Counted from the stretch's first letter, positions 27,049 through 48,114 are shown. The stretch: DNA of 64,000 nt from a virus (IMGVR_UViG_3300025096_000010:1-64000), one strand, 5' to 3'. Numbers and translations: made by a program. The notes: generated from the sequence alone by a model not told the origin.

Positions 27049-40395
<13,347 letters not shown>

Positions 40396-40619: not shown

Positions 40620-40918
40620 AGTTCCGGTATCTCAGTTGGAGTTAGTTGCTTGATGGCCAGTTGGAGCTTATCCAAGTCCGCTTCTGCTATGGGGTGTTCC
40701 AGTTCCCACGGTCCATAGCCACAGGCGATTGCGATTGCGTGGGCATAGCTGTCTCGTTTTTCTGAACTGTATGTTGTCTTTGATCGAAGGGACATGACGG
40801 GGGTATAGGTAATCACCGCCCATCCATTGACCGCTTCGTTGTCTGGTTTAGACTGCATCTTAACGGGGACTCCGTTAATATCAATCACCTGCATATTTAT
40901 CTTTGGGGGTATACTCAT
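40616..40918 (-). CDS. hypothetical protein, 100 aa
   Basis: A 100-residue soluble protein with a beta-rich first half (INMQVIDINGVPVKM, GWAVITYTPVM) and a helical second half. Overlaps the neighbouring genes by 4 bp on both sides, typical of this operon. No catalytic motif is visible. Function unknown. Confidence 0.7.
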   Translation of the reverse strand: MSIPPKINMQVIDINGVPVKMQSKPDNEAVNGWAVITYTPVMSLRSKTTYSSEKRDSYAHAIAIACGYGPWELEHPIAEADLDKLQLAIKQLTPTEIPEL

Positions 40919-41220
40919 GGTCTCTTGAAGGTCATTCCATCCGAGAATGGGATGGGGTTGCGGTCAGGCCCGATAGATACCCACCACTTAAAGTCTTCCT
41001 GACTCACCCAGAAGTCTAATCCGTAGGCACTGGCAGTGTCGTTCATTCTTCTTTTGGTGGTGGCTGTTCTCCAACCACCAGAGTTCAACGTAATGGTGCC
41101 CTGTGTGAACTCCACTACGTTCGTATCGTGGTAGCGAACGGCGGTCTTCAGACCCATCTTGTCAGACAGGTCGAGTACCTTCGTCGCGGCCTTTCCCTTG
41201 AAGGGATTACTCATGCTCAT
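40915..41220 (-). CDS. hypothetical protein, 101 aa
   Basis: A basic protein with a small alpha/beta layout: helix (VLDLSDKMGLKTAV), strand (NVVEFTQGTITLNSG), then an Arg/Thr-rich segment and a Trp-rich end (DFKWWVSIG). A nucleic-acid contact is possible from charge but unproven. Two Met codons (41220 and 41214) are possible starts; both follow an AACCAA...AACAAACAA leader. Confidence 0.65.
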   Translation of the reverse strand: MSMSNPFKGKAATKVLDLSDKMGLKTAVRYHDTNVVEFTQGTITLNSGGWRTATTKRRMNDTASAYGLDFWVSQEDFKWWVSIGPDRNPIPFSDGMTFKRP

Positions 41221-41389: not shown

Positions 41390-41472
41390 GGCTTGGGGTC
41401 GTCTGTCCGCTTCCGTCGCAGGACAAGAAGCAGGGTTAAGGGTACAAGAATCAGGAATAATAATTCATTCAT
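41386..41472 (-). CDS. 28-residue single-TM micropeptide
   Basis: A very short ORF tied to both neighbours by overlaps: its stop overlaps the next ATG (ATGA) and its start overlaps the end of the upstream gene by 8 bp. Residues 3-18 are a strong membrane helix (ELLFLILVPLTLLLVL), followed by RRKR and an acidic tail, so the C-terminus should stay in the cytoplasm. Phage micropeptides of this form can modulate host membrane proteins; its target is unknown. Confidence 0.55.
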   Translation of the reverse strand: MNELLFLILVPLTLLLVLRRKRTDDPKP

Positions 41473-41731
41473 GGTCTTCAGATACCGGTGGTTTGTTCGC
41501 GGTTACACGAATCGTGGTACAGGATGGGGATGCATCGGAATCGATGCCTCGGGCGGCTACCTGATTGAGGAGATGCACGATGCTTACACGGGTGTTATCA
41601 ATGTCCCATGTTACGACCTGTGTTTCCTCATCAGGGAACTCACGCTTAACTTCCTTCAATGCCCGTTGGGCGGTGGCTTTTTTGTCAAACCATTCGCGGC
41701 CTTCGGAGCATCCTACTTCATATATCTTCAT
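41465..41731 (-). CDS. hypothetical protein, 88 aa
   Basis: A soluble alpha/beta protein (KIYEVGCSEGREWF, ATAQRALKEVKREF, TQVVTWDIDN). The pattern strand-helix-strand resembles that of the 101-residue protein at 43079-43384, which also has a DKKATAQ/DKGTAQ-type helix start, so the two may be distant paralogues. I start it at the Met at 41731, which follows an A/C-rich leader. Confidence 0.6.
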   Translation of the reverse strand: MKIYEVGCSEGREWFDKKATAQRALKEVKREFPDEETQVVTWDIDNTRVSIVHLLNQVAARGIDSDASPSCTTIRVTANKPPVSEDHE

Positions 41732-41750
41732 GTGTTTATTGTGGTTTAGT

Positions 41751-43076
41751 TTATCCAAGGAGAGTCATGGTTGATTCAGCTTCTGCTTCTGCTTCTGATT
41801 CGATAGTCGCAGCAGGGTCGGCCATCTCGGTAGCTGCAGCAGTCCGAAGAACCGCAAGGGATTCCTCGTTCTCATCAGTCAGGCTGAACCCGAAGGGCTT
41901 AGGCTCGGCAAAGCCCAGCCGCTCAAACAAGTCTACAAGCATAGACCAGTTGGCCCGTAGCTTGGTAAAGCTTGGTATATCCAGACCCATGAAGCACTCG
42001 TTGGATTGATACAGGGTGTCATCACTACACATCTGGTCCCAACGATCCTGTTCCTTGCGACAAGCCTCTGGGTAATCATGCCGGTACTGGTCACTATCAC
42101 GGATGCAACGGGTCTTCCAGTTTTTGTCCACTACCTTATACAGATCCCTGTCACCGCGATAAGAACTGGGCATAATAAACGGGAACTCCTCCTCTACCAT
42201 GTGAGACAGGACATAATCTAAGCCCTCCCCGACTGTATCTGTGTTAACCTTTTCATTACTATAAGCCTCCCGTAAGGATGTTGAGAACGCCGCCCACCTG
42301 TCCACATATTCAAGAGGCTCCTCGGTAAGGACCGCTTTCTTGATTGCCTCAAGCGCGGTCTCAAGTTTCTTCAACTCTGGTGAGTTAAGATACTGGGTCG
42401 CATATGCCCCGAATGAATTGCGGGCGTTGACCCTTACCGCACAGTTGTTGGTGAGGTAGTGCGCCCAGCCCAGTTGCCAGTTGCGTTCGGCCTTGTCTTT
42501 GCCGCAGACATCCACAAAGATTTTCTGAAATACTCGGAGGAGTATGTCCATAGGATCTACAGTGCGAGTCCTTGCGGGGATGCGTACCCCATGCATGGCT
42601 ACTACCGGAAGGCGCAGGATACAGGAACCATACAGCTTGTCGTATGCCCACTTGGCATCACGGCGAGCGAACAAGGTATTGCTACTGAACAGTGACGACC
42701 AGCTACCGGGCGCAGCTGCACCAACAAATAGCCAGTCCGCCTCATCATCTACCCTCTTGGTTACGGAATCGGGGAGGGCCACAATCATGGGCACCCAGTC
42801 CTTTCTTGTTAAGTCATCGTCAGCAAAGAAATCGTCGGGGTTCTGATAGGCCCGCCCAAGATGGTGGACTGCATCATCCCTGAGACTTGCCTCCTTTGCT
42901 TCCTTGCCCGTCACAGCGTATTTACGATCTTCCTCCCCGTCATCGTGGAAGATGTTGGCACCACTGACACCCTGCTTGGCCATCAACACCCCGTTACGGG
43001 CGCGGACTAATGTAGTTTGTGCATCGCACTGGAATGGTTCGCGGTGGAACCACTCGATTACTTCTTCAGTTTTCAT
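41751..43076 (-). CDS. hypothetical 441-residue protein of the AAA+/vWA cluster
   Basis: A large soluble protein with no family that I recognise. It is rich in Trp, Asp and Arg, lacks membrane segments and ends in an acidic Glu/Ala/Ser tail (TIESEAEAEAESTM). The middle (about 180-230) contains WQLGWAHYLTNN and RNSFGAYATQYLNS, possibly a helical core. It lies two genes downstream of the metallopeptidase-vWA gene with no gaps, so it may be a substrate or partner of the AAA+/vWA machine. An ACCAACCAAG leader precedes its ATG. Confidence 0.65.
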   Translation of the reverse strand: MKTEEVIEWFHREPFQCDAQTTLVRARNGVLMAKQGVSGANIFHDDGEEDRKYAVTGKEAKEASLRDDAVHHLGRAYQNPDDFFADDDLTRKDWVPMIVALPDSVTKRVDDEADWLFVGAAAPGSWSSLFSSNTLFARRDAKWAYDKLYGSCILRLPVVAMHGVRIPARTRTVDPMDILLRVFQKIFVDVCGKDKAERNWQLGWAHYLTNNCAVRVNARNSFGAYATQYLNSPELKKLETALEAIKKAVLTEEPLEYVDRWAAFSTSLREAYSNEKVNTDTVGEGLDYVLSHMVEEEFPFIMPSSYRGDRDLYKVVDKNWKTRCIRDSDQYRHDYPEACRKEQDRWDQMCSDDTLYQSNECFMGLDIPSFTKLRANWSMLVDLFERLGFAEPKPFGFSLTDENEESLAVLRTAAATEMADPAATIESEAEAEAESTMTLLG

Positions 43077-43078
43077 AT

Positions 43079-43384
43079 TTACTTATCTTGGTTGGTGTTG
43101 TTTGGATTGACGGACAACAGATGAACCGTCTTTGCATTTATATGCGCTTCTAATACTTTATCACCCAGTTGAACTGGGATGGTTGAAAAGGCATAGCGAT
43201 TGTTCAGCCATGTGGCTAACGCTATGCGATTATTAACAGGGACGGGAACCGTACTGAGATTCAGGCCGGTGACGGCACCGCGCAGATCATCGTGAAATGT
43301 CTGCGCGGTACCTTTATCAGCGAACCATACCTCAGTAACGTCCCCACCCTTGTGCGGGCGGAAAGCTACCAAATGTATTCTCAT
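43079..43384 (-). CDS. hypothetical protein, 101 aa
   Basis: A small alpha/beta protein starting RIHLVAFRPHKGGDVTEVWF, followed by a helix (KGTAQTFHDDLRGAV). The ATG abuts the stop of the metallopeptidase-vWA gene, so the two are co-translated, and the next gene follows by 2 bp. A role as an adaptor in that system is possible by position only. Confidence 0.65.
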   Translation of the reverse strand: MRIHLVAFRPHKGGDVTEVWFADKGTAQTFHDDLRGAVTGLNLSTVPVPVNNRIALATWLNNRYAFSTIPVQLGDKVLEAHINAKTVHLLSVNPNNTNQDK

Positions 43385-44751
43385 CAGGTGGTAGCTTGGT
43401 CGATCTGTTCAAGATCAATGACATCCCCGAACGGATACTCGGCAGCACCTTTGCCCCAAGTAAGCCAGAGAACTGGCATATTGGGAGGGGACTCGGGGAA
43501 TGTTCCCCAACCATCGGTCATGTAGACGAGTACCCGTGGGTCCACTCGGTTATCCTCGACCCAGTCGAAGGCGGGACGGAAGTCCGTACCACCACGACCG
43601 TGGATCTCGATGTCCACTGGCTGATAGGGAGCGTACTCCCGCACCTTGGCAACCCGACTGTCTACATCCATATGGATGAGCCTGTCGGCGTTAAGAGTAT
43701 TGACTGCATTCTGGATAACAGAGCAGCATACTTCTGCCACACGGGCGGGCATGGACCCACTGGTGTCATTGACGAACACCAATGAACCGATACGCTCATC
43801 CTCCATACCCGCCACGCATAGATCGTGGTTGGCAAGGAACCTCTTGTCGGGCTTGGTCGAGCCTTCATCCATACAGAACTCGTCTGCATACTTCTGCAGA
43901 ATATCCTTCATGTTCAAAGGAGACTTCTGCAACTGCTGAAGTTTCTCCAAGAACCCACCCGGAGCATCGCCGCGCAGCTTGGAGGCATGGATGGAGGTAG
44001 ATAAAATCTCCCGCCACTTGTCCTCCTGCTCGGCAATCTCCTCAGGCGTACCCTTGGGGATCTCAAACTCACCGGGTGACACAGGCTCGGGTAAGGGTTG
44101 GCCACCAGATCCACCTTCCGGTTTGTCTGGCTTAGTGCCGGAACCATCCTTGGATTCACCATCCTTGGAGTCGTCTGGCTTGGTGCCTTCACCTTCCTCA
44201 CCGCCTTTACCATCACCATCACCCTCGCCATCACCCTCACCTTCTTCGTCTCCCTCGGGAGGCTTAGGTGGCGGCGGTGGTGGGGGCGGCAACTCTTCTT
44301 CTTGGAGGCTCTTATAGATAGCCTCCGCGGCCTTCGTCTTGAACCGCTCAAGATCTACACACCCATCCTTAGGTAGGACGATTGGTCTGCTGGCTGTGTT
44401 GCTATACTCAGTCAGCAGGTTGTTGATCTCGTAATCGGTAGCGATGTTGGCGAGGCGCCCGTTACCCATCGCAACTGCTGAAGCGAAACGAACAAGGTGC
44501 CCAAACAAGGGGTGGCACACCTCATGAATGAGGAGGCCGACCAGTTCATAGTCGTTCAGTGTTGCTGTGAAATCAGGATTGAACCTGATAACACGACCAT
44601 CCGTACAAGCCGTGGGGATTGTACGATCCAATACTAGCGGCATACCCGCCATTGCTGGTGCGAAGAACGGGTGGTCCTTCATCACCGTGTTGGTCGCGGA
44701 CTTTAACCGCGTTAGTTGCAGCTCATCTAGAGCTGTGTTGTCTGCACTCAT
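43384..44751 (-). CDS. metallopeptidase-like/vWA protein (DUF2201 or CobT-like)
   Basis: A 455-residue protein with two parts. The N-terminal part has a zinc motif HEVCH (76-80) followed by PLFGH and a further acidic pair in ATDYEIN (Asp106, Glu108), as in DUF2201-type metallopeptidases. After a long Pro/Gly/Glu/Asp linker (about 152-225), the C-terminal part is a von Willebrand A domain with an intact metal site: Asp329-Thr-Ser331-Gly-Ser333, Thr389 and Asp413. Such vWA proteins work with MoxR-type AAA+ ATPases, one of which lies just upstream. Its target is unknown. Confidence 0.85.
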   Translation of the reverse strand: MSADNTALDELQLTRLKSATNTVMKDHPFFAPAMAGMPLVLDRTIPTACTDGRVIRFNPDFTATLNDYELVGLLIHEVCHPLFGHLVRFASAVAMGNGRLANIATDYEINNLLTEYSNTASRPIVLPKDGCVDLERFKTKAAEAIYKSLQEEELPPPPPPPPKPPEGDEEGEGDGEGDGDGKGGEEGEGTKPDDSKDGESKDGSGTKPDKPEGGSGGQPLPEPVSPGEFEIPKGTPEEIAEQEDKWREILSTSIHASKLRGDAPGGFLEKLQQLQKSPLNMKDILQKYADEFCMDEGSTKPDKRFLANHDLCVAGMEDERIGSLVFVNDTSGSMPARVAEVCCSVIQNAVNTLNADRLIHMDVDSRVAKVREYAPYQPVDIEIHGRGGTDFRPAFDWVEDNRVDPRVLVYMTDGWGTFPESPPNMPVLWLTWGKGAAEYPFGDVIDLEQIDQATT

Positions 44752-45034
44752 AAGATATAAGTTCTTTATGCAATAATGCTATAGCCTCAAAGTCATCCCT
44801 GTGTTTCGCCCACAGTTCGTAAACATGGGGCGATGCATACACACCCCGTGAGGTGCGCTCCATGTGCTGCCCTGCTTCATTGGCCTTGAGCCATTTGTTG
44901 AACCAGAACATTACAAGACCATCCCACTCCGCTTCACCCAACTTGTGATCCACGGAGGTGGGAGGATTATGCAGGATGTGATCTATGAGATCGTTACTTG
45001 AGAAGTTCACCTTTGTGTTTGAGTTGCCATTCAA
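44723..45034 (-). CDS. small hypothetical protein between AAA+ and vWA genes
   Basis: A 103-residue protein, overlapping the end of the ATPase gene by 41 bp and the start of the vWA gene by 29 bp. A GTG at 45010 would shorten the first overlap. It is rich in Trp, His and Asp, with a helical pattern (GLVMFWFNKWLKANEAG), and has no known motif. Its position inside the ATPase-vWA pair suggests an adaptor; the long overlaps lower confidence in the start. Confidence 0.55.
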   Translation of the reverse strand: MNGNSNTKVNFSSNDLIDHILHNPPTSVDHKLGEAEWDGLVMFWFNKWLKANEAGQHMERTSRGVYASPHVYELWAKHRDDFEAIALLHKELISYECRQHSSR

Positions 45035-46145
45035 TCAAGGCACGCTCAGTACTCAAGTCTTTTCTCTTGCGACGGAGGCGATTGCCAACCATAGACTCCA
45101 TAGACTCCAGATCCTCTGGACTATTGAGGTTGGGGTCGGTCAACCTGTGACTCAAGAGAAGTACATCTGACAGATTGTCCTTCTCAGCAAGGGTCACCAG
45201 CTTACTGGCAACGATGTACTTGAGGTCGGGACGTTCCACGATCCGTCTCAGGTCACAGTTACGGGCATCGGCCAGCAACTCACCGACATCACCACAGGTA
45301 GCATAGAGCTGCACGAAGGTGACGAACTCCTGCCCAGCCTTGGCACCTATACACCCACAAACATCTGCCTTGAACAGGCGGGTGTTGTCGGTAGCTACCA
45401 TCTCAGCAGGCTCGGAGTACGTAGTAAGTAACTGATCCAGCTTGGTGTACGAACGGGAAGTAGACTGAGCCTGCTCCCCATCCCACTTGTCCATGTTGTC
45501 ACAGTAGAGGGACTCGTTGTGAGCCTGAAGGAACCCGTAGACATACTCAGTCTGCGCGTTATCCATCAACCAATCGAGGGTACCCTTGATCGAGGGTTCC
45601 AACTGATAGACAACGAACCTGTCTATGACTGAAGCAGGCGCACGGCTAGACTGACAGTGATGCTTCTGCCCATTGGCAGCAGCCACCATCATGGTGTTGC
45701 GGGGGAACTTGTACTCCCCGATCATACGCTCCAGCACAGCCTGCTGGGCTACCTTGATAACCGAAGCGTTGGCATTGAACAGCTCATCCCAGAAGATGAG
45801 ATACTTCTTGTCGCAATCGGAATCAGGAAACACTGCGTCCCGATACCAGATCATTCGTTCAAAGGTATCTGAATTGGGATCACGATCAGGGACACCGAAG
45901 CCCTTGATGTCGTTGAAGGTATTGTAGGACAGGTACACAGGGATGTATATCATCCCATTGTCGTGTGCAAACTGTTCTACCTGCGCGCTCTTACTGACGC
46001 CGGGAGGGCCAATAAGAAGTACGGGTTTGTACTTACCGGCTTGTTCACCGGTAGGATTGTCGGCCCGCCATGCCCGCCTAAGGATAAGCGGGATCATCTC
46101 GGGGGTACTGGTTGGTAGCGGGACCACCGCATCATTTTCACTCAT
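44994..46145 (-). CDS. MoxR-type AAA+ ATPase (CobS-like)
   Basis: A 383-residue ATPase. Walker A is GPPGVSKS (46-53), Walker B LIFWDEL (116-122), sensor 1 lies in MMVAAANG (152-159) and an arginine-finger-like Arg176 sits in VIDRF. The insert and helical lid match the MoxR/CobS group, which remodel protein complexes with vWA partners, here probably the protein at 43384-44751. CobS/CobT-like pairs occur in many phages, where they are not thought to insert cobalt. The start follows AACCAGTATATACAT with no Shine-Dalgarno site. Confidence 0.87.
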   Translation of the reverse strand: MSENDAVVPLPTSTPEMIPLILRRAWRADNPTGEQAGKYKPVLLIGPPGVSKSAQVEQFAHDNGMIYIPVYLSYNTFNDIKGFGVPDRDPNSDTFERMIWYRDAVFPDSDCDKKYLIFWDELFNANASVIKVAQQAVLERMIGEYKFPRNTMMVAAANGQKHHCQSSRAPASVIDRFVVYQLEPSIKGTLDWLMDNAQTEYVYGFLQAHNESLYCDNMDKWDGEQAQSTSRSYTKLDQLLTTYSEPAEMVATDNTRLFKADVCGCIGAKAGQEFVTFVQLYATCGDVGELLADARNCDLRRIVERPDLKYIVASKLVTLAEKDNLSDVLLLSHRLTDPNLNSPEDLESMESMVGNRLRRKRKDLSTERALIEWQLKHKGELLK

Positions 46146-46158
46146 ATGTATATACTGG

Positions 46159-47082
46159 TTACAGTTGGATCAGGTCTTTCATTCGGTTAGTTCCAGCAAT
46201 GACCTTGTTGCGGGAGTGTTCATTGGCTTTCAAAATGTCAGCATCGAGATCCTCAAGGAGGCCCTTGCCGATAAGGATAGCTTCGTCCAGATCAGCACTG
46301 GGTCGGGGAGACTTACGGTCTGCCATCTCCAGATTCTCTACGAGTCGCTCGACTACAGACCCCGTGATGGGGCTACTGCTGGACTTGTTCTTAGCCTCGC
46401 ACTGCTTGCCCACATGGGCGGCGGACTTAATCACTTCCTTCGTGACGTCGAGGGTTACAGCCTGAAGTCCATACTCCACCTGTTCCTTCTTGCGCTCGTC
46501 GAGTTTCTCTATCTCAACACGGAGCCGCTCGTCGAATACATCCGGCATGAAGCTGGTGACAATCGGGTCCTCAAACGTAGTGAAGGAGACTCGCTCCCCA
46601 ACTGCATCTTGTGTGGGGAACCGGTGCCTGAACCTTATGAAGTCGTGACCAAGCCCTCGGCTAGTCGCGGCCTTGAGGAGGAGGTCGGGGTACCGTCGGA
46701 GGAAGTCCTGCTTGGCCACCTCAAACCGCTGCCTGTACTTGGACATTGTGTCAAGATACTCAGACAGGTATTCAGTAGACAGGAAGTACCAGCATCCCTT
46801 GGTGGATAGGTTGACCTTCTCGTTGGGGTCGGGCTTGTAGTCAAGCCACGGTGCGGATACCAACCGTTGGAACGCGGCGCGTCCTTCGGACTCGACAACC
46901 TTGAGTGTCTTGATGTCATCACCATCTACCAAGTGTACCTGATGGCTATGCTGTCTTGCATTGGCATCCTTCTTCTTGGCTTGCTCTGCTGCCGCTTGCT
47001 TGTCATTCACCAGTGGGTTGAAGTGACATACGGTCAGCCTTACTTTGATCCCCTCACTGGAGGGGGTAGGTGTACTACTCAT
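46159..47082 (-). CDS. DUF3150-like helical protein
   Basis: A 307-residue, mostly helical charged protein. Its layout (a PLVNDK...AAAEQAKKKDANARQ start, a central EYLDTMSKYRQRFEVAKQDFLRRYPDLL helix region and a long helical end) and its place directly upstream of a CobS-like ATPase fit DUF3150 proteins, which commonly accompany MoxR and vWA genes in phages and bacteria. The assignment is from memory of this context and is not proven by a motif. It would be the third member of the AAA+/vWA complex. Confidence 0.55.
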   Translation of the reverse strand: MSSTPTPSSEGIKVRLTVCHFNPLVNDKQAAAEQAKKKDANARQHSHQVHLVDGDDIKTLKVVESEGRAAFQRLVSAPWLDYKPDPNEKVNLSTKGCWYFLSTEYLSEYLDTMSKYRQRFEVAKQDFLRRYPDLLLKAATSRGLGHDFIRFRHRFPTQDAVGERVSFTTFEDPIVTSFMPDVFDERLRVEIEKLDERKKEQVEYGLQAVTLDVTKEVIKSAAHVGKQCEAKNKSSSSPITGSVVERLVENLEMADRKSPRPSADLDEAILIGKGLLEDLDADILKANEHSRNKVIAGTNRMKDLIQL

Positions 47083-47424: not shown

Positions 47425-48114
47425 CTAACTCTTGGGGATGGGTTCAAAGAATACCTCATCAGGTTTGTGCACATACTTCATGGCATCCCGCTTGAGAACA
47501 CGGGGTACCTTGCCGTTGATAATACTATCCAGCTTGGCGGGCAGGTAGCCCGCTGCCTCAAGTGAGAACAGGAACCACCGTTCATCCTCTTCATCCTGCC
47601 ATGCCGACTCTTCGTCACGGTGGTTGCGGAGGTGGAGGTGGCCGTGGATGTTGAGGTCGATACCCTCTGGCAGACTGTGATCTTCAGGGTCGAGGACATA
47701 CGCGCCCCGTCTTTGGTCCCACTCGGGTTCTTCATAACGGTTATACACTTCTGTCATCACAGGGTGGTGACTGAACAGGATGGTCTTACCCCCATACTTG
47801 AGGGTAAAGGTTTCCACCACAGCAGAGAACCCTGCGCGCAGATACCAGTGGGTCGAGTGACCGTCGTGGTTACCGAGGCACAGGATCTTGGTCCGTGCTG
47901 GACACTGAGCCAAGTAGTCGGGGAGCTGCCCCTCATCCTTGTCGATCACATCCCCGAGATGGATGAGGATGTCATGTGGGAAGAGTCGTTTCAACCCTTC
48001 CCCTGATAGGGCCGTGTGGTTAGGGGGCCTGACCCCACGCCTTACTATGCTGGAGAGATTCTCTGGCGTATCTATGTGGGTGTCACTGACTACCCATATG
48101 GTTGGTGTTCTCAT
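47425..48114 (-). CDS. calcineurin-like metallophosphoesterase
   Basis: A 229-residue hydrolase with all motifs of the family in order: SDTHID (Asp11, His13), LGDVID (Asp55), GNHD (82-84), FSHHP (His116/117) and HGHLH (157-161), which bind two metal ions. Phage members can act on nucleotides, nucleic acid ends or phosphoproteins; the substrate is not visible from sequence. The ATG overlaps the stop of the upstream gene by 4 bp, so it belongs to the accessory operon. Confidence 0.9.
   Translation of the reverse strand: MRTPTIWVVSDTHIDTPENLSSIVRRGVRPPNHTALSGEGLKRLFPHDILIHLGDVIDKDEGQLPDYLAQCPARTKILCLGNHDGHSTHWYLRAGFSAVVETFTLKYGGKTILFSHHPVMTEVYNRYEEPEWDQRRGAYVLDPEDHSLPEGIDLNIHGHLHLRNHRDEESAWQDEEDERWFLFSLEAAGYLPAKLDSIINGKVPRVLKRDAMKYVHKPDEVFFEPIPKS

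Follow-up and report, generated by a model that had tools for sequence, protein, structure and literature searches.

The 64,000-nt stretch of DNA analyzed here (IMGVR_UViG_3300025096_000010:1-64000, hereafter the window) comes from a virus record in IMG/VR, 66,822 bp long, and has genes for terminase (PHROG 2), exonuclease, helicase and a DNA polymerase of family A. On its minus strand, positions 41465-47082 hold seven open reading frames (ORFs) with a largest gap of 13 bp and several short overlaps (Table 1). Three of these are the subject of this work; their products are a helical protein resembling DUF3150, an AAA+ ATPase of the MoxR type, and a protein that joins a zincin-like metallopeptidase domain to a vWA domain. 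A first-pass annotation of the sequence had described this triad, and it proved real, with every ORF at the minus-strand coordinates predicted and the domain reading borne out by Pfam matches and invariant residues and, for the DUF3150-like protein, by relatives and profile comparison. Because three-gene relatives were found in many phages and large conjugative plasmids, the module probably serves mobile DNA at large, as opposed to being a vitamin B12 gene or a virion-building part only.

Table 1. Genes of the minus-strand cassette in the window, in order of transcription.
Feature	Coordinates	Strand	Basis or remark
DUF3150-like helical protein, 307 aa	46159-47082	-	Pfam DUF3150 below cut-off, relatives, profile comparison
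MoxR-type AAA+ ATPase, 383 aa, N4 gp24 family, PHROG 1297	44994-46145	-	AAA_5, PHROG, motif residues
103-aa protein	44723-45034	-	Between ATPase and vWA genes, overlapping both
Zincin-like metallopeptidase + vWA/MIDAS protein, 455 aa, N4 gp25 family, PHROG 1314	43384-44751	-	DUF2201_N/DUF2201
101-aa protein	43079-43384	-	1-base overlap with vWA stop
441-aa clade-specific protein	41751-43076	-	ORF
97-aa protein	41465-41758	-	Last gene of contiguous cassette, overlapping 441-aa gene

The first six genes were found in identical order in related marine virus contigs from IMG/VR, a clade across which protein identity ran from ~95% down to 35% in the fastest genes (the virus records used for comparison are possibly fragments). 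ORFs related to the 97-aa protein were present in most clade loci. Against relatives, the ratio of nonsynonymous to synonymous substitutions (dN/dS) was 0.13-0.41 for all six genes where computable and not saturated, and by these values purifying selection seems to act on all six as protein-coding genes, even on the small ones. The 103-aa and 101-aa genes keep their positions in relatives (dN/dS 0.15-0.25 and, where computable, 0.19-0.41, respectively), and neither product had a family match in searches of Pfam, PHROG, NCBIfam and PADLOC.

The 455-aa protein matched the Pfam families DUF2201_N, a putative metallopeptidase (1.8e-28, 100.3 bits, cut-off 23.2), and DUF2201, a VWA-like domain (2.6e-18, 66.8 bits, cut-off 26.4). 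Both families were also matched by 18/18 divergent phage homologs, whose identity to the window protein went down to 23%. Invariant in these 18 were HExxHxxxxH (H76, E77, H80, H85), the N-x-A-x-D...N motif that follows it (N102/D106/N110) and the MIDAS residues D329, S331, S333, T389 and D413 (DxSxS..T..D). HExxH was seen in 90/90 viral loci, a count biased by the scan's own use of the motif; the fair test lay in isolates and plasmids recovered by tblastn, and the motif was invariant also in the isolates, which had been recovered without its use. In a profile search of the PDB, weak matches linked the peptidase domain and the vWA domain to MJ1213 structures, M48 peptidases and integrin-type domains. 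These matches place the protein in the DUF2201 family, with a putative peptidase activity. PHROG 1314 is labelled "HNH endonuclease", and the label recurs in many phage records; the Pfam domains of the protein gave this name no support.

For the ATPase, the match to AAA_5 was narrowly over the cut-off (22.2 bits against 22) and that to bpMoxR just below it (26.7 bits against 27), whilst PHROG 1297 was matched at 1.6e-50. The Walker, sensor and arginine positions G49, K52, E121, N158, R176 and R231 were invariant in 17 ATPases, and the nearest solved relative in the PDB profile search was midasin (1.3e-36). Using tblastn, the ATPase was found in 498 phage records and the vWA protein in 215. At 113 of the 116 analyzed loci with both at full length, the two genes lay within 3 kb of each other. 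We read the protein as a MoxR AAA+ ATPase whose gene is partnered with that of the vWA protein.

Pairs of this kind have been named CobS/CobT in virus papers (PMC8651126; PMC11705849), with a schitovirus ATPase presented as a CobS auxiliary metabolic gene (PMC11705849); the module would then be an auxiliary cobaltochelatase boosting vitamin B12 synthesis. CobS/CobT does share the pairing of AAA+ and vWA proteins. However, the CobT model TIGR01651 matched none of 17 phage and plasmid records and the CobS model TIGR01650 gave one 11-bit match in them, below its cut-off, although each of the two models did recover Caulobacter, either above its cut-off or in the control. The 18 homologs with DUF2201_N/DUF2201 gave 0 CobT matches, and the window protein has a peptidase domain with an invariant zinc motif, including in the isolates recovered without it. 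The B12 reading is not supported by these comparisons, and we consider it highly improbable.

The third gene is more remote from its named family. Pfam DUF3150 (PF11348) matched the 307-aa protein with E = 0.006 and 16.3 bits, under the gathering cut-off of 24.9, and six clade records matched the same profile segment, 0/6 over the cut-off. The assignment is weak, and its only support comes from relatives and from profile comparison. Aligned by hhalign with plasmid DUF3150 proteins, the window's family gave a probability of 95.5% (E 1.4e-8, 144 columns), against 4.5% for reversed and <=0.3% for shuffled controls; the annotated plasmid DUF3150 partners matched PF11348 at E 1e-62 to 1e-93. By this comparison the DUF3150-like protein is a remote homolog of genuine DUF3150 proteins. 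Direct searches found close relatives in this clade only, the structure model had a mean predicted local distance difference test score (pLDDT) of 48, probably reflecting a shallow alignment, and a literature search for DUF3150 found nothing.

Linkage of the three genes was assessed in several ways. A scan with a conserved-motif alignment yielded 80 viral and 63 bacterial-genome loci, and the clade DUF3150-like profile was iterated over neighboring ORFs to convergence with reversed sequences as decoys. The iterated profile found a DUF3150-like gene in 49/153 loci (0 among reversed decoys), always on the strand of the vWA gene. Where all three genes were complete, they shared a strand in 41/41 loci, in three orders: D-A-V, A-D-V and A-V-D (D, DUF3150-like; A, ATPase; V, vWA). 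The profile (alignment A6) then placed a DUF3150-like gene exactly between the ATPase and vWA genes in six plasmids that had not entered it; in further genomes it likewise located the gene at the module. In many marine virus loci a 221-aa gene lies between the ATPase and vWA genes; it belongs to a different family. We then used 239 genomes from two bacterial families (120 from the Burkholderia latens family and 119 from the Chitinophaga family), in which DUF3150-like genes stood beside a DUF2201_N gene in 10/10 cases and 10/12 DUF2201_N genes had a DUF3150-like neighbor. Nine genomes were positive; three (G013, G017 and G019) had played a part in identifying the family, and six, which had no share in building the profile, were new evidence. 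Conserved linkage, the absence of which had been named beforehand as grounds for giving up the triad, was decisively found across related contigs, the 49 loci and the 239-genome test.

An alternative is that the three genes have separate functions and co-travel in a gene-dense region. Phage accessory regions are dense and shuffling, and in two relatives (L015 and L016) the DUF3150-like gene was 88-89% identical to that of the window and the ATPase and vWA ~60%, indicating that this gene recombines separately. The linkage across phages, plasmids and bacterial genomes, with three orders on one strand, and the 10/10 adjacency argue against this, making separate functions quite improbable. When positions 7639-9716 of L015 were compared with 44994-47082 of the window, identity was 89% for the DUF3150-like gene and 59% for the adjacent ATPase; a recombination breakpoint between the two genes is likely.

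The module was also found on conjugative elements. In Chitinophagaceae it lay among TraJ, TraM, DUF4138 and ParB genes, and in Burkholderiales plasmids the ATPase, DUF3150-like and vWA genes were followed by genes for a VirB11-type ATPase, VirB2, VirB3, VirB4, a TraI-domain protein and TraD. Three conjugative plasmids, namely pCAR1, one of IncC and one more, had genes annotated as DUF3150 and VWA, with that of an AAA ATPase adjoining or a few genes off, and their DUF3150/VWA genes adjoined RecT/Bet and lambda-exonuclease genes or lay within ~20 kb of them. The vWA proteins of these three had HExxH, an E-D-x-R-I-E motif and MIDAS in common, and their peptidase domains compared with our peptidase alignment (A1) at 95.6%. 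IncC, the IncP-7 plasmid pCAR1 (ORF101-103; PMC2642839) and related plasmids therefore resemble the window in having the three gene types on one strand, HExxH and MIDAS in the vWA protein and profile homology in DUF3150; they differ in their longer DUF3150 and vWA proteins, the remoteness of the similarity and the nearness of ssb/bet/exo recombination genes, which in IncC separate the ATPase gene from the other two. MoxR and VWA genes were already reported in 2009 as conserved between pCAR1 and R478, Rts1, SXT and R391 (PMC2642839). Searching with the pCAR1 vWA protein recovered 2,283 plasmid records, 1,923 of them typed conjugative; part of the records match the vWA domain only.

In a 90-row tree of vWA proteins, viral, plasmid and cellular copies were intermixed with 14 label changes, and the well-supported branches force at least 5 changes for the virus label; support for the deep forks is weak and several long branches come together, and we claim no single history. 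Distribution of the module was patchy, with 9/239 sampled genomes positive in the two families. In Burkholderiales plasmids (L181 1-4930 and L188 2196-8058), a PRTRC cassette (ParB, ThiF, proteins A-F) was located upstream of the module at a distance of ~4-5 kb, its ParB resembling the ParB beside the module in Chitinophagaceae. PRTRC was rejected as a general partner of the module, as PRTRC ThiF was over the cut-off in only 4/31 genomes. On the Synechocystis plasmid pSYSA (L182 5961-8239), MoxR and peptidase-vWA genes were found near toxin-antitoxin-like genes, with no detectable DUF3150-like gene.

The pair of ATPase and peptidase-vWA protein is already known in phages (N4 gp24/gp25; PMC7824862). 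For jumbo phages, Iyer et al. (2021) described a pair made up of MoxR and a metallopeptidase-vWA protein and suggested that it acts in virion assembly (PMC7824862); there too, the MoxR ATPase adjoins a vWA protein whose N-terminal domain is a metallopeptidase, whereas the window cassette adds the DUF3150-like gene and three clade-specific genes and can be traced to conjugative elements. In N4 (Schitoviridae; PHROG 1297/1314) homologous genes are adjacent in the same order, and in G7C, which was among the phages recovered by tblastn, the annotation likens the two genes to N4 gp24 and gp25; unlike in the window, no DUF3150-like gene was detected anywhere in either phage. The pair is therefore no new combination; what is new here is the DUF3150-like third partner.

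Were the module devoted to virion assembly or maturation, an AAA+/vWA chaperone would fold or assemble structural proteins and the peptidase would trim them. The proposal of Iyer et al. has a precedent in the MoxR-vWA pair for tail assembly in the archaeal virus ATV (PMC7824862), N4-like roseophages encode virion proteins near their gp24/gp25 homologs (PMC4193335), and a mass-spectrometry note accompanies the PA5oct ATPase record. Against these, the module, including the DUF3150-like gene, has copies on conjugative plasmids and next to genes of conjugative transposons; because such elements carry it yet have no virion, a virion-only role is weakened. N4 gp24/gp25 are middle genes (PMC4193335), and the window module lies in a minus-strand block, opposite to the terminase gene and a giant 4448-aa ORF on the plus strand. 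We regard a virion role as unlikely, and the purely virion target among those the first-pass annotation had suggested is argued against by the same module on conjugative elements. In plasmids, a variant of this role may be the assembly of another large apparatus, the type IV secretion system.

RavA-ViaA and other MoxR-vWA chaperones combine an AAA+ ring with a MIDAS co-chaperone, a logic that the module shares. To our knowledge these chaperones have neither a fused HExxH domain nor a DUF3150-like partner.

From the domains, the invariant catalytic and MIDAS residues, the three-gene linkage and the occurrence in phages and conjugative elements we infer a physical complex. The three core genes would encode an AAA+/MIDAS-driven extract-and-cut machine of mobile DNA, used during establishment or replication of the element, a proposal to which we give an even chance of being correct. 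The MoxR-type AAA+ ring would bind, through the MIDAS site, the zincin-carrying co-factor, and cycles of ATP hydrolysis would pull on the targeted protein complex and either deliver it to the peptidase or open the peptidase. The DUF3150-like protein would make a third subunit, whose likeliest role is that of an adaptor for choosing the target. Used as a phage or conjugative element establishes itself or replicates, the machine would dismantle or process a protein complex, probably on or near DNA. Because both kinds of element use the module, the target should be one that both meet, at entry, establishment or replication. Our sequence comparisons support the proteolysis or remodelling machine suggested at first pass. 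We hold more tentatively, and at somewhat under even confidence, that DUF3150, MoxR and HExxH-vWA proteins form one conserved three-subunit machine of this kind, common to phages and large conjugative plasmids and elements, whose target during establishment would be DNA-bound or met at the entry stage. If so, N4 gp24/gp25 and unexplained backbone genes of IncC and pCAR1 would gain a single function. The pair is common in phages, where PHROGs labels it "HNH endonuclease" and some virus papers call it "CobS/CobT"; the findings argue against two published readings, and with the third gene and the sharing with conjugative plasmids the question becomes testable in N4 and pCAR1.

Several observations weigh against an extract-and-cut machine. 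The apparent link to DNA processing comes from neighboring genes only (in many phages the ATPase/vWA pair lies near PolA), and the mass-spectrometry note for PA5oct could point to the virion. No DUF3150-like gene was detected (alignment A6) in N4, G7C, phiFa, RHph_TM27A, CRP-7, G, PA5oct, S-TIM5 or naam, and because many phages lack a detectable copy, this gene would either not always be needed or have diverged past detection. Deleting bet, exo, s067, s068 and s070 in SXT lowered transfer by <=10-fold (PMC2791158), and s067, s068 and s070, or some of them, are presumably genes of the module. A literature search for single-gene essentiality data on N4 gp24/gp25 found none.

Counter-defence is another function that would suit both phages and conjugative elements, since both meet host defence on entry; the machine would extract and cleave a host immune protein or complex in the newly entered cell. 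The patchy, mobile distribution and the position of the window module among uncharacterised accessory genes are in its favor. Against it, the cassette proteins had no defence-system match in PADLOC, and narrow counter-defence genes would less typically be kept in N4-type phages (N4, G7C) and in plasmid backbones, where the module is retained. We give this explanation a low probability.

The 441-aa protein was found by direct search at 10 IMG/VR loci, all in this clade. It had no match in Pfam, PHROG, NCBIfam, PADLOC or PDB, and its AlphaFold2 model was unusable (mean pLDDT 33), probably through a shallow alignment. In Planktothrix phage Pag-Yong1 (L003 7584-8624), a protein annotated as AcrVA2 is encoded two genes after the peptidase-vWA gene; identification of the 441-aa protein as AcrVA2 was rejected, as hhalign against this protein gave a probability of 0.2%.

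In the 4448-aa ORF (27049-40395) there is an HEVGH motif as well as a stretch of proline-glutamate repeats; the ORF had no PHROG match and only a low-complexity match in Pfam. At its end it meets the cassette block in convergent orientation, and relatives have homologs in that place. At 40915-41220 lies a homolog of Kyanoviridae (cyanophage) Gp96 (PF23790, 2.2e-10), kept near the cassette in the clade. Upstream of the cassette, at 47425-48114, is a calcineurin-like phosphoesterase gene, a homolog of which directly follows the 441-aa gene in two clade loci (L017 and L018).
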